Virus record (IMG/VR): IMGVR_UViG_3300035183_001148 | Span: 1 to 43,072 of that record | Origin: a virus | Strand: one strand, 5' to 3' | DNA length: 43,072 bases | Part shown: piece after piece, positions 5,903 through 34,455 of the stretch | Numbering within the stretch: position 1 is the stretch's first letter | Layout: each line of letters starts with the position of its first letter | Translations under genes and position numbers: made by a program | The notes under the pieces: model-generated | What the model was told of the DNA's origin: nothing | Seen by the model: only the letters and a program-made list of their open reading frames with translations | Database searches by the model: none

Positions 5903-7279
5903 ATGAAATTCGGAAACAAATCCAAAGGAAGCCGGCAGCGGTTTGAATACAAGCCTCGAACCGTTTCCGATATCGACAGGCGAATCAATCAGCAAGGAGG
6001 TGCAAGGGAAGGGTTCATTCGTTCGGACATCAAGGTTTGGACTCCTAAGGAGGAGAACGTAATCCGTATCCTCCCCCCTGCCAAATCGTGGCAGGATAAG
6101 GGGCACTATGGGTACGAGGTCTTCGTCCATTACGGTATTGGAGCGGACAACAGTGCCTTCCTATGCCTCGAGCAAATGAAAGGCGAAAATTGTCCCATTT
6201 GTGATGAACGAATTAGGGCGGATCAAGCCGGAGAGGAGGAGATTGCAAAGGAACTTCGACCTGCCAAGCGGGTGGCAATGTACATCATTGACCGCAAGTC
6301 TGAAAAGTCAGGGCCTCAAATTTGGGTTGCCCCATGGACTGTGGACAGGGATATTTCCGCGCTTTGCAAGGACCCTAAAACGGGAGGGATCCTCAACATT
6401 GACGATCCTAACCCGGATGGCGGGTATGATGTTTCCTTCAACCGAGGGAAAAACTCAGGAGGGTTTTTTGAGTACACTGGAATCCAAATTGATCGGAGAC
6501 CATCGCCTTTAAGCGATGATGATGACCAGGCGCAGGCATGGTTGGAGTACATCGAAAGGAATCCCATTCCTGAGGTGCTGGTCTTCGCAGACAAACGGCA
6601 TATCGCCAAAGTTTTCAGCGGAGAATTTAAGGCCGACTCCGCTGAAAAGTCCACCACGGCCAAATCTTCCAAGGAAGGAAATACCATGGGACTGATTAAG
6701 AAAGGCAAGAAAGTGGCAACGAAAAAGCAAAAGGAACTCACCTGGGATGACATTCATTCGATGAGTGAGGAGGAGCTGGAAGCCCTTATCGAGGAAAAGG
6801 AGCTGGATGCCAGCGACGAGGAGTTTGACAGCCTCGAACAGGCCCAGGATTGGGTCTGTGAACAATTGAGCATCGAAAAACCTGAGGAAGAGGACGAAGA
6901 GGAAGAAAAGGACGAAGAGGACGAAGAGGAAGAAAAGCCTGCTAAAAAGGGTCTCAAGGTGAAGGGGAAGGGTGGGAGCAAAAAGGCTCTGACCTGGGAG
7001 GATGTTCACTCGATGAGTGAGGAGGAGCTGGAGGCTCTGATGGAAGAAAAGGAGCTGGATGCCAGCGACGAGGAATTCGATGACATTGAGCAGGCCCAGG
7101 ATTGGGTCTGTGAACAATTGAACATCGAAAAGCCTGAGGACGAAGAAGAGGAAGAAGAGGACGAAGAGGAAGAAAAGCCTGCTAAAAAGGGCCTCAAGGT
7201 GAAGGGCAAGGAAAAGCCGGATGACAAAAAGTCGGCATGGAAGGCTAAACTGGCCAAACTGAAAGCCAAGGCCAAGTAA
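5903..7279 (+). CDS. gp32-like single-stranded DNA-binding protein with duplicated acidic tail
   Basis: A 458-residue protein whose first 250 residues look like a T4 gp32-type SSB. The ENVIRILPP strand is followed by a zinc set H-x11-C-x8-C-x2-C (VHYGIG...FLC...NCPIC), close to the His-Cys3 site of gp32. The N terminus is basic (KFGNKSKGSRQRFEYK), as in the cooperative-binding arm. From residue 279 two near-identical units of about 80 residues follow (279-356 and 363-438), each with TW-D/E-D, HSMSEEELEAL, ELDASDEEF, QAQDWVCEQL, then a Glu/Asp run and EKPAKKGLKVKGK. An acidic tail normally recruits replication proteins, but here it ends in a basic helix (SAWKAKLAKLKAKAK), which is unusual. An in-frame ATG at 6686 with a good Shine-Dalgarno could start a separate tail product. 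A terminator follows the gene. Confidence 0.8.
   Translation: MKFGNKSKGSRQRFEYKPRTVSDIDRRINQQGGAREGFIRSDIKVWTPKEENVIRILPPAKSWQDKGHYGYEVFVHYGIGADNSAFLCLEQMKGENCPICDERIRADQAGEEEIAKELRPAKRVAMYIIDRKSEKSGPQIWVAPWTVDRDISALCKDPKTGGILNIDDPNPDGGYDVSFNRGKNSGGFFEYTGIQIDRRPSPLSDDDDQAQAWLEYIERNPIPEVLVFADKRHIAKVFSGEFKADSAEKSTTAKSSKEGNTMGLIKKGKKVATKKQKELTWDDIHSMSEEELEALIEEKELDASDEEFDSLEQAQDWVCEQLSIEKPEEEDEEEEKDEEDEEEEKPAKKGLKVKGKGGSKKALTWEDVHSMSEEELEALMEEKELDASDEEFDDIEQAQDWVCEQLNIEKPEDEEEEEEDEEEEKPAKKGLKVKGKEKPDDKKSAWKAKLAKLKAKAK
6671..6688 (+). promoter_or_regulatory. Internal ribosome-binding site and ATG inside the SSB gene
   Basis: AAGGAAGG at 6671-6678 lies 7 bases before an in-frame ATG at 6686-6688. 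Translation from here would give the last 197 residues (MGLIKKGKKVATKK...), that is the acidic repeat tail without the DNA-binding core. The start looks like a natural N terminus, so this may be an internal initiation site or the scar of a gene fusion. Confidence 0.4.
6737..7213 (+). repeat. Tandem direct repeat of about 250 bp encoding the SSB acidic tail
   Basis: Two units start at 6737 and 6989 (offset 252 bases, 84 codons), each about 225-250 bp. They share long identical runs, for example around GATGAGTGAGGAGGAGCTGGA and GGCCCAGGATTGGGTCTGTG. The main length difference is in the Glu/Asp run. The reading frame is kept, so the duplication lengthens the tail without breaking the gene. Confidence 0.85.
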
Positions 7280-12701: not shown

Positions 12702-13126
<425 letters not shown>

Positions 13127-13130
<4 letters not shown>

Positions 13131-15682: not shown

Positions 15683-18600
15683 TTACCTCTTAAAGATTTT
15701 TGCCTGGCACAAGTAGCTGGCAGCAACTAGGTTTAAGTACGGTACCTGAGTGTTGCCCCCGTACTCCCATCCATCGTAGGTAAAAATTGTTATTCTGGGT
15801 CTAACGTTTTTAGAGGCGAACGCAGTGACCTGAAAACTTCCTCCAACATGCCAAGGAATGCGAACACGCTTGGTGTTCCCATATATGCGGTCCCCGGTAA
15901 TTAGCTGCCATTCATTACGCCCTATTGGAACCGGGATAACCTGACTCGATACCGTATCGAACAGGTCTACGTACACGTAGACTTTAGTCCTTTCCTCCGA
16001 ACCGCCTGTATTCCCACCTAGCCTAAGCAATACATGCCCTTGGGCATTAAAGTGCACCGTGTAGGGGTAGGCTCCGTTGGTGGGCAAAAATATGGCGGGA
16101 ATAGTGCTGATGGTGTAATTGGACACCGAAGAGGAAGTTCCTCCATCATAGTAAGTAGCTTCCTCTCCCGAATTCAAAACATATTCAGTGATCGCATTTT
16201 GCAGGATGTTTAGGGTATTGATGATATCCACGCCATTTACACTAGTGGCCTGAACATCTCCACGAACCTTAACACTAGCAAACTCCGCCTGATGCGTCCC
16301 GTTAGCTCCGCCAGGGTCACTATGGATTTTCCACCCGGAAACTCCAGGATTCCAGTTGGCGCTTTGCAGATAGCGCCCTGCAACTAATGCTCCTGCCTTG
16401 ATACGGTCTACATCAACGGAGTTGGCAACAATATCCGCCCCCTCAGTCATTTCAACTAGGCGGATATTCCCCATTCGGTTGACTCCAGTCCCAAGGTAAC
16501 CCAGCAGTGCCCCTACCGATACGTAGGCAGCGGGACCTGGAATCTGCGGACCTTCATTTGGACCGAACCTGATCGTATATTTGGTATAACTTGTAGGCGG
16601 AACGGCGCCAATAAGTCCAAAGTAATGATAAGTACCAATCCCAGGCCAACCTGTTGGGTAGGAACTTCCGTTAAGAACGTTGCCAGAGGCATCATAGAAA
16701 ACAACGGTTAGGTAACAGGTTAGGGATCCACTAATCGACTTGGCATCCATTTCCAGTCGGTAGTTTTTGCTGGTACTGATGGGCACTCGCTTGGAAAACA
16801 CGTAGAAATTTCCGAACCCATTGGCTTCCCAAGCCTTGCCTCCAGTAACAGCCGGATCCGTAACAATTACTGGGCTTCCAGCAATGATATCCCACGCGGA
16901 GGAATCAGAACAGAACGGGTCCTGATTAATGACGTCCCCAATGGAGAGAATGCGCAAGGCCCGGGCCAGTACCGTACCATCAACCAACAGATTGCCATCT
17001 ACGGTTTGATTTACAACAGACCACACCGAGCCTGTCCAAAAACGGGTCTGGGAAAATCCGGTGCCATATTGGGTTACCAAATCATGTAGGATCGGGCCCC
17101 CGTCCTCCGCTGCCGCAGTGTTTGCAGCAGCATCACTCCAGGAAGTTTGCCCGGAAACGTAAAACCAACGTGACCCACGCTGCCCTGGGCTGCCGGTGGG
17201 CCCTTGCGGGCCTTGTGGCCCTTGTGGGCCTTGTGGCCCTTGTGGGCCGGTCGGGCCGGTCGGGCCTTGCGGGCCTGCCCGTGTTTTCGACAGGGTAAAC
17301 CGCAGGGTTTTTGAGGTGTAGCCTGATCTAGAGGCTGTTATGTCCACATACCCACTATCCTGGGACAGGGCAGTTACAGTGAGCACATTGCCATTGGTTC
17401 CGCCAAGCGAGGATGTTACGCCAGTCCCGTTAGTGCGAACATACGACCAGTTGGCACTTTGATCCACCTCGTCCTCAAGGATATTCATGGTGGTGGTAGC
17501 ATTTGTCCAGTCAGTCACTGTACCATCGACCAGCGCAGGCAACGTGACTGCATAAGCGGTTAGTTTAGCCACCACCGTTTTTAAGGCGGTTAATGATTGG
17601 TTCAACAATTGAGCGCCGGAGGTGCTCACATTGCCGGAACTATCGATGGATCTGACTTCGAACGAATAGGTTCCTGAGGATGCAGGGGTAACGGATTGGT
17701 ACTTCCTGGTAAAGGGAGGGCTGCCCGCAAAATTCCCAACCGGAACAGTAGCAATGGCAGAGGCTGAGTTCCAATTTATTGTGGCCCCCGAAGCCATCCT
17801 CAATTCAAAGGCAATTATGTCCCCAATCGGGTTAGGAACCACCCAGGAAAATTCCCTGGTTCCTGCTCCTATGATGGTCAATGCCAATGACGTTGGGGCG
17901 GAGGGCGGAACAGTTTTTCCTACAACCACATGGTCGAAGGAATAAACCCAATCCGATTTAACTCCCAATCCATTAATAGCCCTGACCCTTACGTCATACC
18001 TTTCCTTCTCCACCACAGGGGCGAGGTAGGTGAATGTGGAATCCCCTTGCAGCCTAGCCAATGGAATCCAATTCACTCGGGCCGAGACTGCATATTCCAC
18101 CTCAATCTGCCCGCCATTTGTCACATTGCTATCCGGATGGGCATTCCAGGAAATTCGCATACGCGGAATGATCGTTCCATCCGCAGTACGCAATCCATAG
18201 GCATCTCCACTGGCCAATGACAAACCTGTTATGGGTGCCACACTATAAGGATTTGGCAGTGTGGTGTTAGGGGATATGTCATAGGTACTTGGAGTGGTTG
18301 CGGTATAAACCCCAGAGGCTTCCTCCCTTAGTATCAACTTTGGACCAAGGTTCATCAAGGAAAATTCCCGCTCAACGATGCGGAAAACCTTGTTGGAAAA
18401 CCCATACCGTGTGCTATTGAGCATTACGGTTTCGCCAGGCCATAGCCGGTAGGCTTTCATATTGAACCCAGCCTGAACGACCATCGCCTGCCTTGCCTGC
18501 TCCAGCATAATCAGTGCGATGCGTTGGGCGGTCACCCCGTCCGAGGTGAAAGGCAAGGAAAGGTCGGCAAAAATGCGTTCCCCATCCTGGGATTCATAGA

Positions 18601-19990
18601 AGGAACTGGTTATTGGAGGGAAATCAACGGGCTGGTAGTTTTGGTTAGGATCAATGTATTGTCCTTTAACCGCGTTAAACAAACTATCCCGATCCGCCCT
18701 ACCCTGGATTACCACATTTGAATGATCCAGAAAATCGTTATCCGTCAACGTGACAGTGGGAACACGATACGCTCCTGCGTATACCCTCCATTTCCCTTGG
18801 GCAAAGGTTGCCATCCCAGCCATCGAGGATAGCAGCATGTCCAGGTTTTCACCTAGGTCAGCATCAGTGCTTAAGACTCCATCGCAGGTATAACGTTTGC
18901 GTGAGGTGGTTACCCAGGACGATCCGTTCCAATAAGGTTGATTGGCAACCAATTCATCGCATATATTGGCAGCCGCGATTATAAGGGCATCATCTATTTC
19001 CGAATTGGACGCATTGAACCCCATAGATGAGGTTAGGTAGTCCCGAATGCACAAGGCGGGGTTGTTACTGTATTGCCAAGTGGCTGGATTGTTGTACCTT
19101 TGCGGACCAGACCCCCCATTGGTGCTATCGAGCCTAGGATCGTAAACCTTTTTACCCTTTATTTTTGCCTTGAAGGCTGGGGTTCCATTCGGGAAAATGT
19201 CCTCGTTAAAGACGAGTTTAAGAGCCACATAAGGAACGCCTTGCCCTCTATCGGAGCTGGAAACCTCTCCCCCCGTCCCCGTCATCAGCATGGAGGAAGC
19301 TGATTCATTAGAGGTGCCCAAATGGAATTCAGCCGTTATAAAGGTATCATACCTGGCAACATCATAGGAAACGATCAGGCTATTGCCTGGGCCAATGGAG
19401 GAGGTGTCAACGGTAACAACATTTCCAGAAACACTGGTCGGAGTCAGCGTCCCCTGGGAAACGTAATCCCACGAATCCGTAGGCGACCCCCAGGAAATCG
19501 TGACCGATGCCGCTGAGGTCGGAGCAGAGGATAGGGTCAATTGTTGAGCGGAGGATCCGTTTGAAATAAACGCTTCGCGCAGTTTTATTGGATTGGATTT
19601 AACAAATGGGGCAGTGGTTACGTTGCCATTTACATCAAGGGCACATGGAATATCGTTTAGGTAAATGGTGTCAATCGAAGTTATTTCATGTCCAGGCCCC
19701 AGCAAAATGCCCAGGTACAGGATTTCCTTGTGCGTTCCAAATGACCCAATATACCATATTGGCCCAGAGACTACCGACTCCCCGTAGGCAATCGTTTTTG
19801 GCGCCTCTGTGGATCGCACAGTGACCGCACGATCCCTAAGACTCGCATTCCATGCATCCCGGAATCTCCTGTTCATCCGCCTGCGGTTGTAATCTCCAAA
19901 TCCAATGTTTACCGCAAGCAATGCCGCAAGTGTCCAGGACACAAAATGCCCTATGGCCAACAAGGCAACGGCTGCAAAAAATGCTGGCAT
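15683..19990 (-). CDS. J-like tail tip / host-specificity protein with FN3 and collagen segments
   Basis: A 1,435-residue protein and the largest in the window. The N terminus is hydrophobic ([27 protein letters not shown]), then residues about 50-570 resemble the tail-hub core of lambda gpJ. Two fibronectin type III-like domains follow (about 583-690 and 695-795), then an Ig-like segment, a collagen-like Gly-Pro-Gln/Thr run at about 904-935, a beta-rich domain that may bind sugars (about 990-1150), and a C-terminal part with [13 protein letters not shown] resembling the central-fibre end of J proteins. It would form the tail tip that contacts the receptor. It directly follows the peptidase and two minor tail genes, the lambda K-L-M order. 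The exact domain edges are estimates. Confidence 0.85.
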
Positions 19991-27865: not shown

Positions 27866-29080
27866 TTATGCTCCTCCTTTAGCTGGAGCGGAGAGTATCA
27901 ATTCCCAATCCCCACCAACCGCATTAGGAATACTATGGGTGTCCTTCCTGGCGACCCACAGGCAGAAATTGTGCTCCACAACGGACCCTTTCCCATAGAA
28001 TGATCCGGACTTATATTTGCCTTGAAATTCTCCAATAACCCCTGCTGGCCCTTGCGGGCCTTGTGGGCCACGTTCGCCTTGTAGTCCACGCTCCCCTTGC
28101 GGGCCTTGAGGGCCTTGAGGGCCTTGTGCTCCGACAGGACCTGCAGGACCTGCTGGGCCACGTTCACCTTGTGGGCCTTGGGGACCACGCTCTCCTTGCT
28201 CGCCCTTTTTGCCTTGTTTCGCTACCAAAACCCAATGCTCACTTCTCCCTGGCTCCACGTTCTTATTCGGAATTACCGCACGCCAGGAAGCCCCAGACCA
28301 GGCTACCTCATCATTGAATTGGTATTCCACCTCTCCATCCCATTTGCCTTTATGGACTGGGATTTGAATAGTCAACTCCGATTCCAAAATCACTTCCCGC
28401 ACAGAGGTGTGGACACGAAGTGCAAACCTTCTAACGTCCTTTGGAACCACCTCAATGTCAAAAACTCCCAAGGAAACGCAACGCCAATCCCCAACGGATG
28501 ATTTAGGTTCCTCTTTCGTTCTGCACTTGGCTTGCCATACCCCTCCTCTATGGCAAACCAAAGCCCCTCGATCATAGGTAATGGGTTCCCAAAATGCCAA
28601 TTCAGAAATAAGCCCATCCTCGCCCTTATCTCCCTTTTCCCCTTTCGGACCTTGTGGACCTTGAAGTCCCTGCGGACCTTGAGGACCAGGATCTCCCTTT
28701 TCGCCCTTTTCCCCTTGTGGACCTTGAGGACCAGGATCACCCTTTTCTCCTTTAGGCCCTTGAGGCCCCTGCGGGCCTTGTGGCCCAGGATCTCCTTTTT
28801 CGCCCTTTTCGCCCTTTTCCCCTTGTGGACCTTGAGGGCCGCGCTCCCCGCGCTCCCCCTGCAAACCTTGGGGACCAGGATCACCCTTTTCTCCTTTAGG
28901 CCCTTGAGGCCCCTGCGGGCCTTGAGGGCCAGGAGGGCCAGGAGGGCCAGGAGTTTGGGATTTCAGGTCAATAGCGGATTTTGCTAAGGCCGCCACCTCA
29001 GAAATTCTGGCATCCATTGCCTCCCGTAGGAGACGCAAAGCCCCGACCACTGCCTCCATTGTAACCTGTTTATCCGTCAT
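27866..29080 (-). CDS. Collagen-like fibre protein, probable head fibre
   Basis: A 404-residue protein with two collagen-like runs of Gly-X-Y triplets: residues about 43-166 ([13 protein letters not shown] repeated many times) and about 290-350 ([10 protein letters not shown]). Between them lies a domain starting [24 protein letters not shown], and after the second run a similar one ([24 protein letters not shown]); both match the short Trp/Tyr pattern of carbohydrate-binding repeats (CBM5/12-like). The N terminus is helical and may anchor a trimer. It is encoded between portal and connector, away from the tail-fibre region, so a trimeric fibre on the head or neck is likely. Start overlaps the portal stop (ATGA). 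Confidence 0.85.
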
Positions 29081-30495
29081 TGCATCGCCCTTTCAAACAA
29101 TTCCCTAGCCAAAATGTCATGGGCAATATCCTTAGCATCCTCGCCCTCCTCGTTCTCCTGTGCAGAAGGCGAGGATTCGTTAGTCAATGATCCATCCTCC
29201 AAACTGGATTCTGAATTTTGTGTGGAGGTATCCATATTTGCTGCCTGCTCCTTAGCCAATAGCTCCTTAAGCATAGATACAGGAACCATCTGGCGCTGAA
29301 GGAATAGGTCGTCCCCGCCTTCCTTAGGCTCTAGTTGCTCCCTTCGTCGGGCTTCGTTAGGAGTGAATATCCCGCCTTGTACGGCTTTGGTAATCGCCGT
29401 AATCCTCTGTTCCAAATCTCCTCTAAGCAAGCCCGTTTCAAAATCGAATTCCAGGTATTCAGTTTCGCCGTCCAATTCAAATAGACGGTTCAAATGATTT
29501 TCCAAATGCTCCAACAGGAAACGTAGCGCCGAGGTATAAAACAACCTGTTCAACGTTTCCACATTCCTAAACGATGCCTTGGACAAATCCCCCAGCATGT
29601 AAAGAGGCACCCTGTATGCCATAGCAATATCGGCAACCGATAGATTGTAGGTCGCGATTACCTCGGCATCCGTGGCGTTCATCGTTATTTGTTGCCATTT
29701 TAGGTCATTGTGGAGGACTGGGGTTCCTCCAATATTTTCACCTTGGGTGACTGAATTCCATCGCGCTCTAATTTCCTCCGCCGCCTTTTTGTTCAGTGAT
29801 TGCGGGGTGGTGAGAATGCCACTGGGTCTCCCCATGTTCAGAAAAAACCTCGCGGTAGCCCGCTGAATAGCAGACCCCACGGCAGCAGAATTAACAAAGG
29901 CGGAAATCGGACTTTGCCCAATCAAAGGGTGCTGGAAACAATTAATCCTGGGGTTGAAAATGAATTCCCCAGGCACCACGTTGTCTACATCCACCAACCT
30001 ATCCCCAAAGTTCCCGACCGAGTAAAACACGTCCCCGGTATCAGGAACGACCATTGGCCAGCACCCTTTAGGAGGTAGAGGGTGCAATTCAAAAACCTCA
30101 TTCCTATTATTTCTGGGAGCATAGGCAAAGGCCGTCCCTCGCAAAAGCAAGGAGCGCATTATGTACAACCAAAAATCACTTCGGGTCTGATAAGAATTAG
30201 GATTGCGCAAAACCCTTTCTGGGTTACTACGAGGAACCCTCCTTGCCGTCCCTTGTGCATCCACCCTCCAGTGATAAATAGGCAAGCTGGAGACCTCCTG
30301 TGAAAGGATGTTTACACAGGTATAAACCGCCGTATTAGTATCGAGGTCAAAGGAAAACTTGAGGTCACTTGCCTTTTGAAACCAATTAGGTGACCATCTA
30401 AAAACATCCATCAGTTCCCAACCTTTTTCCACAGCATTTTCCTTAAATGCAGGATCTGGTTGTTTTCGCCTAAAGGAAAAAGGAAATAATCTCAT
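29077..30495 (-). CDS. HK97-family portal protein
   Basis: A 472-residue portal. Seen: N-terminal [36 protein letters not shown] (a well-conserved region of the family), [48 protein letters not shown], the [20 protein letters not shown] box, and a C-terminal acidic, disordered tail ([11 protein letters not shown] and on). The dodecameric portal forms the DNA entry channel, docks the terminase, and nucleates the head. It is downstream of a small protein at 30,492 and upstream of the collagen gene. Confidence 0.93.
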
Positions 30496-30726: not shown

Positions 30727-31050
30727 CTATCGCTCCTTAATCTTGAGGTAGACGGTTCTATCATCGACCCTACCTGCGGCGGTGGTAATTCTACACCGCA
30801 ATCCAATATTTTCTCCAACAAGTCCTCCCGAAACAAATGCCGTCGCTTTTTGAGCGTTAAAAGCCTGGGAAACAATAGTGGCATTTGAGGTTCCTAACAA
30901 TTGGAATTGGGCATTCGCAATCGTGTCCGGAGGGGTGGAGGCGGCCGCTAACCATTCTGTCCAATCGAATGAGTAATCCAAAATGGCATTGGGGTCCTTA
31001 ATTATGGATACCTTTCCATTTGCTCCTACAACAAAAGTTTCCACTGCCAT
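30727..31050 (-). CDS. Phage structural protein with KDPxAxLDYxxDW motif
   Basis: A 107-residue beta-rich protein with KVSIIKDPNAILDYSFDWTEWLAAASTPPDTIANAQF near the N terminus. That 'KDP.A.LDY..DW..WL...DTI' pattern is common in short phage proteins encoded near adhesin, decoration or tail genes; it resembles an Ig-like sandwich. It ends with AAGRVDDRTVYLKIKER, as many do. It probably forms part of a decoration or fibre complex with the repeat protein upstream; that is inference. Confidence 0.6.
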   Translation of the reverse strand: MAVETFVVGANGKVSIIKDPNAILDYSFDWTEWLAAASTPPDTIANAQFQLLGTSNATIVSQAFNAQKATAFVSGGLVGENIGLRCRITTAAGRVDDRTVYLKIKER

Positions 31051-31063
31051 TTTAACCTACCTT

Positions 31064-32389
31064 TCAATTGCCAGGAAGGATGTTATGTGTCCTTTGTTCC
31101 GCATTCAAAGCCAAACTGCGAAATTCCTTAGGCAAAACAGCCCTACGAAATTCCTTAGGCACTGAATATGTCCGTTCCCCATAAGCGGTCACCACACCAG
31201 AGGTAACGGTAGCATCGGAATCCTCGTTTACTCCAACCAAATCCGACAGGCCAACAAAAAATACCGAGTACGCTACAGTGCCATCCCCAACCCCCAACAC
31301 CTCAACAGTGCTTCCAACATACTGTGCCTGGGAATTGGATACCTCTGAAACTGAGATTATTTCCGAACCAAATGCAAGGGCATTTAATAGGGCAGATATT
31401 CCTTCTCCTACGGCAACACCTTCATTAACAGCGCCGAAGCGAAGGAGCGTTGTGGATTGAGTATCTCCAATCCCCAATGCATCGGAAACGGAAGCAATCA
31501 TTGTGGCAAAGCCCGATTGCGAGTCCGTACCTGAAAGCGTTTCATTTACAGAGGTGCCGGAACTCGAGGATCCGGTGCTAGCCTCCGTTACTCCCAGAGT
31601 CTCCGAACATGCACCCAATGCGGACAACAATGCGGAAACACTATCGGTGGCAGAAATTGTTTCGCCTACGTTTCCAACACCTATGTACCCAGAGGATTGT
31701 TGATCCGCAATGGAAAGCGATTCAGAAACGGGTCCTTCAAAAATGGCAGCAGCCGATTGGGAATCAACCACGCCAATGGAATCACTCACAGTCCCAACAA
31801 AAATTCCAGTCGCACTGGTCGAATCCGCACTGGACAGCGTCTCCTGAACCGAAACGTTAATTACGGTTCCATAGGAAGAGGAATCGGAAGCAGTAAGTGA
31901 TTCAGATACCGATCCAACTAATGTTCCTACCGCAGACCGGGAATCAGAGGCAGTGAGTGATTCAGATACCGATCCAACTAATGTTCCTACCGCAGACTGG
32001 GAATCAGAGGCGGTAAGTGATTCATTAACGCTACCCGACCCAGCCCCAGTCCCAACGGTAACAATAGGAGTTCCGCTGCTGTACGTATCGAGTGGAACTC
32101 CATTTACCGTAACACGAAACTTATATTGGGCACCATTAGCAACCCCAGGTCGAATCTTGACGCAAAACTCTACCTCAGTGTTGCCATCATTGCCCAGGTC
32201 AATGGATGGGAGCGGATTGGTATCATCCGATATGCGTCCTGCTGTAAACGTACCAGTAAGTCCAGTTAGACGCTGCGTGGTGCTGGTAGCCGCTCCTGAG
32301 GCTATATGCACTGAGTCCGAAAGAACAACATCGGGTAGGGTCCCGACGCTGGACTCAATAACTGGTAGTTGTTTTAGGACGATGCTCAT
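31064..32389 (-). CDS. Protein with fourteen 20-residue tandem repeats
   Basis: A 441-residue secreted-like structural protein. Residues 1-118 are a beta-rich head (including TEVEFCVKIRPGVANGAQYKFRVTVNG). Residues 119-398 form fourteen consecutive repeats of exactly 20 residues with a rough consensus G-x-V-S-E-x-L-x-x-x-D-S-x-S-A-x-x-x-x-x. No insertion or deletion breaks the register. Residues 399-441 contain VPKEFRRAVLPKEFRS, a motif often found in this phage structural module. A coil of 20 residues fits a beta-solenoid or a stack of beta-hairpins, so I expect a rod-like fibre or head decoration. Repeats 2 and 3 are near-identical in DNA (60-bp unit) and the others have diverged. Family unknown to me. 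Confidence 0.75.
   Translation of the reverse strand: MSIVLKQLPVIESSVGTLPDVVLSDSVHIASGAATSTTQRLTGLTGTFTAGRISDDTNPLPSIDLGNDGNTEVEFCVKIRPGVANGAQYKFRVTVNGVPLDTYSSGTPIVTVGTGAGSGSVNESLTASDSQSAVGTLVGSVSESLTASDSRSAVGTLVGSVSESLTASDSSSYGTVINVSVQETLSSADSTSATGIFVGTVSDSIGVVDSQSAAAIFEGPVSESLSIADQQSSGYIGVGNVGETISATDSVSALLSALGACSETLGVTEASTGSSSSGTSVNETLSGTDSQSGFATMIASVSDALGIGDTQSTTLLRFGAVNEGVAVGEGISALLNALAFGSEIISVSEVSNSQAQYVGSTVEVLGVGDGTVAYSVFFVGLSDLVGVNEDSDATVTSGVVTAYGERTYSVPKEFRRAVLPKEFRSLALNAEQRTHNILPGN
31881..32000 (-). repeat. Two 60-bp direct repeats within the 20-residue repeat gene
   Basis: Bases 31881-31940 and 31941-32000 differ at 4 of 60 positions by my count, whereas the other repeat units match only at the protein level. 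This points to a recent duplication or gene conversion of one 20-codon unit. The wider repeat block covers 31196-32035. Confidence 0.85.
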
Positions 32390-32406: not shown

Positions 32407-33234
32407 TCAAGGCACCCATCCATGAATGGATACATCAAACGTTCGGTCCCCTGCCGTTACATCAGTACATTGCCCGCGCGCCGCCAAACGCGATCCGGAA
32501 GGGATGGATATCGGAAGGATCACTTCCCCGGTAAGAAATGGGCCATCAAGGGTGGTAGTCCAACGCAGGAACAGGTTGGGGATTATCACTGCCTCACTGC
32601 CAGAGGCACCAAGTCCAATATCCAAAAGCGCCGTAGCATTATTCGTCCTGTTTACATCCCCTGCCTGGCCAATCATTATGGAGATAGCGTCAACCTCTAC
32701 GGGGCTGGAGGCAATCAATTGTGTCCATGCCCCTTTTATGTTAGCCGTTCCTCCCGGGTCAATCGCAACTCCACGGGACAATGTTGGAGTAAATAAAGCC
32801 ACCGCCATCGAATATCCTTCACTTCCATTAATACCTCGAGTGCTGCCCGAGGCACTTACATTCAGGACATGACTTGCAGTGGAGGCAGCGCACCTTACTC
32901 CAACGAATGCTCCTAAGGGAACACGCAGTGGCAAGGAGTATATTCCAATTTGGTCAGCATTTTTCAATCCTTGGAATATCAGGTCGGGAACAACGATGCC
33001 AAAATTAGTACCATCAGTAGACAATCCAACATCGATTGCTTTATTGGAGGCCGCAGTTTGTGCCACACATAACAACATCGACCTCCACTCCATTGTTGTT
33101 TGACCAAGCGACGTCCAAGCACCTTTCGCATTCGCCGTTCCGGATGCGGTCACTGTGGCGGCAGTGGTTGTTGACTCAGTGACTCCCAATGTTTCGCAAC
33201 GCGCACCGGGATGGAAATTGGTAATGGTTGGCAT
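32407..33234 (-). CDS. Structural protein with two tandem similar beta domains
   Basis: A 275-residue protein. Two halves look alike: residues about 25-140 with ANAKGAWTSL...FGIVVPDLIF...LPLRVPLGAFVGVRC, and about 155-275 with ANIKGAWTQL...EAVIIPNLFL...LPISIPSGSRLAARG. Such paired beta domains suggest a jelly-roll-like adhesin or head decoration. The N terminus reads ARCETLGVTESTTTAATV, which matches one unit of the 20-residue repeats in the next gene, as if a repeat had been copied across. No enzymatic motif. I do not recognise the family beyond structural. Confidence 0.6.
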   Translation of the reverse strand: MPTITNFHPGARCETLGVTESTTTAATVTASGTANAKGAWTSLGQTTMEWRSMLLCVAQTAASNKAIDVGLSTDGTNFGIVVPDLIFQGLKNADQIGIYSLPLRVPLGAFVGVRCAASTASHVLNVSASGSTRGINGSEGYSMAVALFTPTLSRGVAIDPGGTANIKGAWTQLIASSPVEVDAISIMIGQAGDVNRTNNATALLDIGLGASGSEAVIIPNLFLRWTTTLDGPFLTGEVILPISIPSGSRLAARGQCTDVTAGDRTFDVSIHGWVP

Positions 33235-33573: not shown

Positions 33574-34455
33574 TTAAGTTACCCCCTTCCAATTTGACCC
33601 AGATACCTCATCATACTCAAGCCTTATTTGAATTCCAGAAGGATCTCCGGTAGCCTGAATGCCAAAGCGAATCCTAAAATTAGTCCCCGCAGCCACATTC
33701 ACATTTGTGTTTTGTGCAGCCATCGGCGTGCTGCCACTCTCACTGCCGTCATCATTGAAATAACGGTAGGCTTTCTGGTCAAGCGTTGGGGCGGCCGGAG
33801 CGCCCTTCAACGAAATTACCTGAATAGGTGACGGTTGTCCGCCATTGTTGTTCGCCGAAAAACTGACCGTCCGCGCAGTTAGGTCCGTGGTGATGAGGTA
33901 TGCGCCTGCGCCATATTCACCGTTGATCGACGGCCCATCGTTGACGAAGATCGTTGTCGGTGTCGCGCCTGTCCATTGATCCGCAGTGATGTTGTGCGTC
34001 CCAAAGGATGAGGCAGCAAAGCTGAATGCCGCGATCAGAATTTCGTCCGTCTGCGCAGGCGAGGACAATGCAAGCGTCCACGGGCTGGTCGTGTCCGTAG
34101 TCTGCGACGAATCCAGGTCAACCGGGTTCGTGCTCACAACCCCGGAAATCTCGATGGCTCCGGCGGCAAACAGTCCGGATCCACAATTGACAGTAACCCC
34201 AAGATTCGCCTTCGTTCGGTCAAGCTTCGCGCGTGCTATCGAGGCGCTGTTTGAAAATGCATTGGCCGCTCTATGCGTGGTGTAGGAGTTGCTCCCGCCA
34301 GTTGCGTCATCGGTGCAGACGCATTGGGATGTGGAATATTCGGTGGTTGTTACCGCAACATAGTTGCCAATAGTAGGAGTGCCACTGAAAAATGTCGTGG
34401 CAATTGGTGTTGAGGAATCTACGTAGGTCGAGGTTCTTACAACGCTTACAGCCAT
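33574..34455 (-). CDS. Adhesin- or decoration-like protein, composite composition
   Basis: A 293-residue protein in two parts. Residues about 1-195 look like a beta-rich domain with Asn/Thr/Ser (TTRAANAFSNSASIARAKL, AGAIEISGVVSTNPVDLDSS and on) and are encoded by GC-richer DNA. The C-terminal part has APTLDQKAYRYFNDDGSESGSTPMAAQNTNVN and FRIRFGIQATGDPSGIQIRLEYDEV, a module common in phage structural proteins, and is encoded in the native style. It overlaps the start of the preceding gene by 10 bases. A host-binding or decoration role is inferred. Confidence 0.55.
   Translation of the reverse strand: MAVSVVRTSTYVDSSTPIATTFFSGTPTIGNYVAVTTTEYSTSQCVCTDDATGGSNSYTTHRAANAFSNSASIARAKLDRTKANLGVTVNCGSGLFAAGAIEISGVVSTNPVDLDSSQTTDTTSPWTLALSSPAQTDEILIAAFSFAASSFGTHNITADQWTGATPTTIFVNDGPSINGEYGAGAYLITTDLTARTVSFSANNNGGQPSPIQVISLKGAPAAPTLDQKAYRYFNDDGSESGSTPMAAQNTNVNVAAGTNFRIRFGIQATGDPSGIQIRLEYDEVSGSNWKGVT

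Follow-up and report, generated by a model that had tools for sequence, protein, structure and literature searches.

What holds an array of fourteen repeats, each exactly 20 residues long, in phase while its sequence diverges, and what might such an array do for a virus? The question is raised by P0001, a protein encoded within the window analysed here, which is the whole 43,072-nucleotide stretch of IMG/VR virus record IMGVR_UViG_3300035183_001148. We consider it likely that P0001 is a virion appendage protein, namely a fibre shaft with a docking end and exchangeable, probably β-solenoid, repeats carrying two acidic ladders. The gene lies on the minus strand, a point on which the original prediction was silent, and the features that matter for the argument are as follows.

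31064..32389, minus strand: coding sequence of P0001, 441 aa, lying 17 nt after the upstream gene and 13 nt before the adaptor gene.
32060..32335, minus strand: N-terminal domain of P0001 (residues about 19–110), with 77–82% identity to its counterparts in IMG/VR contigs whose repeats are of other types.
31196..32035, minus strand: 20-residue array (residues 119–398), 14 units, consensus xxV[ST]E[ST]LxxxDSxSAxxxLx.
31892..32011, minus strand: recent tandem duplication (residues 127–166), with 58/60 nt identity; TRF reports 31880–32024, 60 bp x 2.4.
31091..31171, minus strand: C-terminal 9-residue module (residues 407–433), TYSVPKEFR / RAVLPKEFR / SLALNAEQR, with a 27-bp DNA repeat at 31106–31161.
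30727..31050, minus strand: Gp77-type adaptor gene (PF23148, podophage GP4 fibre–tail adaptor, E 5.2e-22).
29077..30495, minus strand: portal protein (PF04860, 4.8e-78), used for finding the closest relative, L057.
33574..34455, minus strand: upstream virion-module gene with a C-terminal NDDGSE stretch, which in L001 likewise lies upstream of the corresponding gene.

The original prediction of fourteen 20-residue units without indels is borne out by autocorrelation. The array has a BLOSUM62 score of 1.285 at lag 20, the highest value reached by 2000 shuffles at any lag from 10 to 40 being 0.167, and units 7–14 alone, the most diverged part, score 0.614 (shuffle, 0.364). Chance low complexity is ruled out as the source of the array by this shuffle test. 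All 14 units carry an acid at position 5 (E or D) and another at position 11 (D or E), together with a hydrophobic residue at position 7. Hydrophobic residues favour odd unit positions in P0001 (p = 8e-3), in the longest related array, L020 (p = 1e-20), and in 12 other arrays (p = 1.5e-34), which is the alternation expected for β strands around a 20-residue coil. Two units had also been described as nearly identical in DNA. This does not hold in the unit frame, where units 1 and 2 share 83% and units 2 and 3 share 65%, but it does hold in a staggered 60-nt window that compares residues 127–146 with residues 147–166. Because the remaining neighbouring pairs are only about 33–52% identical in DNA, recent duplication is confined to the first part of the array, units 1–3, and the rest is old; the view that the array is still changing is supported.

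Two observations concern the genes upstream. The N-terminus of the 32407–33234 (minus strand) product has CETLGVTESTTTAA, which is close to array unit 8 (SETLGVTEASTGSS) and could be a stray unit or a chance likeness. A NDDGSESGSTPM stretch stands at the C-terminus of both the 33574–34455 product and the product of L001 2961–3947, with two genes between it and the repeat gene in the window and one in L001. It is possible that this stretch and the N-terminal domain of P0001 are the first and second halves of one domain.

The pattern is not confined to this phage: when viral contigs were scanned with a degenerate DNA pattern covering two neighbouring units, more than 20 other contigs were found with an ORF that carries the P0001-type 20-residue unit in frame. 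Among the motif spacings of 60 aa or less in 25 array ORFs, 189/198 are multiples of 20, as are 165/174 once the single spacing that the search itself guarantees in each retrieved protein is removed. The longest array, that of L020, has 59 units, no two of them identical, with 243 acidic (D+E) and 0 basic (K+R) residues. Unit identities fall to 5–15% while the 20-residue phase is kept without indels, and acids occupy positions 5 and 11 in nearly all 260 aligned units of relatives, with few misses in a set whose selection favoured acids. A first array alignment, made from overlapping windows, was discarded because identical stretches displaced rows by whole units, and the sole strict-pattern match in genome contigs (L005) was an artefact, being the antisense frame of a Thr-Pro-rich repeat. 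Many arrays have in common an MFGYAAFAQxPFA start and a GWxKINDxQ end cap; in L004 (4185–6737), 20-mer arrays are broken by repeated FGGSAFGESAFAGEGF blocks.

The statement that no named repeat family shows this pattern also stands. P0001 has no credible match, and none above cut-off, in Pfam, PHROGs or NCBIfam, and a profile of its array retrieves nothing from PDB sequences even at an E of 10. Its array relatives have no consistent Pfam or NCBIfam match; one implausible Pfam hit, to Pilosulin, barely exceeds the cut-off in a single array, and the weak matches differ between arrays and were judged compositional. A tblastn search of cultured phages with P0001 and array fragments of L004, L020 and L035 returned MetMV (E 5e-3), whose array is periodic at 20, or nothing, an absence that is weak evidence because BLAST masks low complexity. 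Foldseek gave no match at E<0.001 in PDB and BFVD (best BFVD E 6e-3, to uncultured phage proteins), and a literature search found no described 20-residue phage repeat. Judged by sequence, the repeat is widespread yet without a family name.

Beyond the original prediction, we observe a 9-residue module at the C-terminus, an adjoining adaptor gene, and the exchange of the whole repeat type among relatives. The adaptor gene product (107 aa), encoded directly downstream of P0001, scores 78.6 bits against the PF23148 gathering cut-off of 27, matches PDB 8jou weakly (E 0.012), and has relatives in 79 cultured phage records. The C-terminal module is the second phased module of P0001, with a 9-mer consensus near xxxVPxEDR, and it also occurs near the adaptor, in what we call the slot gene, in DSL-LC06, the Microcystis phage Mae-JY22, Mae-JY28, the Sphingobium phage Lacusarx, the Gordonia phage Moosehead, GodonK, prophiT49-2, Bazzle, Tourach, Shagrat, REQ1 and L057. 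With a 9-mer position matrix from which the tested locus was left out of training wherever it had contributed, the nearby gene, no more than about 2 kb away, is the top-scoring sense-strand ORF in 13/13 loci. P0001 ranks first among the 136 sense-strand ORFs of the window (score 19.8); scores are weak in GodonK (3.4) and DSL-LC06 (8.5), and two additional loci reach 32.0 and 32.5, where the next-best ORFs have −0.9 and 4.0. The best match thus falls in a gene close by, most often one for a repeat protein, in 15/15 adaptor loci examined, whereas the module is missing from the array gene at six loci that have an array but no known adaptor, which indicates that the 9-mer goes with the adaptor and not with the array. 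The module can vary in its position along the chain, being N-terminal in 2/15 slot proteins (Moosehead and the 184-aa protein of GodonK). The clearest 9-mers are those of Lacusarx, yet no clear array period is seen there.

The repeats themselves differ from one slot gene to the next. In L057, the closest relative found (portal 63% identical), the slot gene has about 21 indel-free 14-residue units, while the P0001-like C-terminal module and the adaptor are kept. Among the other slot genes compared for period, the period is 22 in Mae-JY22, 20 in Mae-JY28 and Bazzle, 24 in Moosehead, 21 in L064, and 40 in DSL-LC06 and prophiT49-2, all above the shuffle maximum; REQ1 peaks at 18–19, Lacusarx has no clear period, and Shagrat has none above the shuffle limit. 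At the other end of the protein, the P0001-like N-terminal domain (77–82% identity) is joined to a 20-residue QVTETDTA type in L042, L043, L046 and L047, and to a roughly 21-residue TLSSxLDxATLSASG type in L001, L007 and L008. As the N-terminal domain is found on other repeat types, and the C-terminal module and adaptor with other arrays, the end parts are kept and the rod is replaced. Whether many tailed phages have a two-gene attachment slot, consisting of a Gp77-type adaptor and a 9-residue ExR protein, at which phase-locked rods (14, 20, 21, 22, 24 or 40 residues) are exchanged is, in our estimate, evenly balanced; if they do, fibre length and surface could be exchanged with the docking parts untouched. 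Separately, a 996-aa slot gene in L065 (1959–4946) has QASETDLAQ repeats, the type found behind the P0001-like N-terminal domain in L042, and the slot genes of the Rhodococcus phages Shagrat (L061, 1448–3028) and REQ1 (L062, 7255–8952) have an acid-x5-acid pattern at about 17–19 residue spacing that, by eye, resembles positions 5 and 11 of P0001.

In the fibre-shaft reading that we favour, the C-terminal ExR module of P0001 would most likely dock onto the adjoining Gp77-type adaptor, as their gene neighbourhood suggests. The 14 phase-locked units would form a rod, each unit probably making one β-solenoid coil with a core of V3, L7, V/A9, A15 and L/F19 and with S/T mostly in between. At the β-solenoid rise of about 0.48 nm per coil, unit number would set the reach, at about 7 nm for P0001 and about 28 nm for its 59-unit relative. 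The acids at positions 5 and 11 would form two ladders needing neutralisation, plausibly by Ca2+, and the distal end would be formed by the N-terminal domain. At the slot, rods of differing repeat type are exchanged, with the docking module and adaptor retained. The phased array, the 9-mer module, its company with the adaptor and this exchange are observed, and virion location, docking, the coil fold, Ca2+ and polarity are inferred.

Structure prediction, which had been proposed as a check, gave 20 aa per coil in two AF2 models of low to moderate confidence. The repeat-only run (ten units, from a nearly gapless 16-row alignment) produced ten near-identical coils, with a bridge at position 3 and strands at 7–10 and 14–19 (mean pLDDT 61, pTM 0.47), and in the full-length model units 1–10 are again coiled (pLDDT about 66–79), the rest being mostly <55. 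The best VIA-align match of the repeat-only model is 3p4g, an antifreeze β-helix that depends on Ca2+ (Z 22.7, 1.3 Å over 190 residues; next, 15.7), as it is for a second AF2 run (Z 25.2; next, 17.6). AF2 is known to invent β-solenoids for 20-residue repeats with acidic stacks, with 3p4g named as a possible source (PMC11795689), and a study of phage tails faced equal doubt about AF2 solenoids (PMC13243795). In the natural families where all methods concurred, the repeats were strongly diverged (PMC11795689), as most units are here. Given the modest confidence of the models and this bias, the fold is not settled by prediction, and the case for a regular rod comes from the sequence phase and alternation, the coil model being a hypothesis. 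The original suggestion of a regular solenoid or fibre is therefore still the best reading of a fixed unit length despite divergence, and a β-solenoid of 20 residues per coil is probable, although AF2 cannot decide the fold.

A refinement compatible with the fibre shaft is that the E5/D11 ladders coordinate Ca2+, as in the solenoids of RTX proteins or MpAFP, so that the rod would be rigid only with Ca2+; we entertain this tentatively. The idea draws on acids at positions 5 and 11 in every P0001 unit and in nearly all aligned units of relatives (chosen in a way that favoured acids), on the acid-x5-acid pattern of the two Rhodococcus phages, and on the clear lead of MpAFP 3p4g among fold matches. 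RTX repeats are Gly-rich and contain Asp (GGxGxDxUx, or the 19-residue MpAFP form). This Gly-rich motif was sought in the P0001 units and is absent (consensus xxV[ST]ExLxxxDSxSA), so RTX membership is not claimed; moreover, the unit has 20 rather than 18–19 residues, position 5 is Glu rather than Asp, and the acidic stacks were perhaps learned by AF2 from 3p4g itself (PMC11795689).

It is rather doubtful that the same rod is a head or neck fibre or a capsid decoration, attached to the capsid or connector and not to the tail. The P0001 gene lies between the major capsid and portal genes, which makes such a site possible, and the head fibres of phage 7-7-1 can mediate host contact (PMC12796354). 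However, the adaptor family is named after a fibre–tail adaptor, the slot genes of both Moosehead and prophiT49-2 have PHROG hits to 'minor tail protein' families, and tail clusters house the slot genes of Bazzle, Tourach and prophiT49-2. Finally, a flexible, charge-extended linker of S/T/G-rich, K/R-poor units, with the AF2 solenoid a hallucination, is improbable: it would suit the composition (60 S/280 residues, 31 D+E and 2 K+R in P0001; the wholly acidic charges of L020), an NCBIfam match to ClfA that is weak and compositional (E 0.0015), and the AF2 artefact (PMC11795689) together with the low to moderate pLDDT, but linkers would tolerate indels, whereas the phase here is strict even at the lowest unit identities, hydrophobic columns 3, 7, 9 and 19 are fixed with an odd/even alternation, and the charge–hydropathy (Uversky) plot puts the array on the folded side (H 0.537 vs boundary 0.450). 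Disorder, named at the outset as the outcome that would count against a regular structure, is thus indicated neither by charge and hydropathy nor by AF2.

Few parts of a phage change as fast as its fibre genes, which often go unannotated. If the docking module and adaptor are recognisable, annotators could call repeat fibres without similarity in the shaft sequence. The slot is also a natural test of how reach and contact surface are altered through unit duplication or shaft exchange, and the arrays offer a natural benchmark for whether AF2 β-solenoids with acidic ladders are real. Elsewhere in the window, a single-strand-binding-like protein (5903–7279, plus strand) has a duplicated acidic block, LTWDDIHSMSEEELEALxEEKELDASDEEFD, and in a small ORF (12702–13130, plus strand) a GCT triplet repeat (12906–12943) codes for a run of alanines.

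When compared to known systems, the predicted coil is closest in shape to region IV of MpAFP, the Ca2+-dependent RTX-like β-helix of PDB 3p4g. The two share acidic residue stacks and a short coil without indels; they differ in coil length (19 versus 20 residues), and P0001 has Glu at position 5 and no Gly-rich motif, in a comparison made with an uncertain AF2 model. In podophage GP4, Gp77 (PF23148; PDB 8jou) is the fibre–tail adaptor; the neighbouring gene in the window is above the Pfam cut-off for this family, and P0001 occupies the place expected of its fibre partner, with no sequence match of its own to 8jou or any other PDB chain. Actinophage minor tail proteins (PHROG 7114 and 9784) resemble P0001 in their slot near the adaptor, their 9-residue module and their phased repeats (24 or 40), whereas their unit sequence and length differ and P0001 has no PHROG match. 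The window also encodes collagen-like GxY proteins on the minus strand, one (27866–29080) adjoining the portal gene, with a matching collagen gene at the equivalent place in L057, and one a large tail protein (15683–19990). Like P0001, these collagen-like phage fibres place a repeat shaft in the virion module, but theirs is a GxY triple helix, whereas that of P0001 is built from a 20-residue amphipathic unit.
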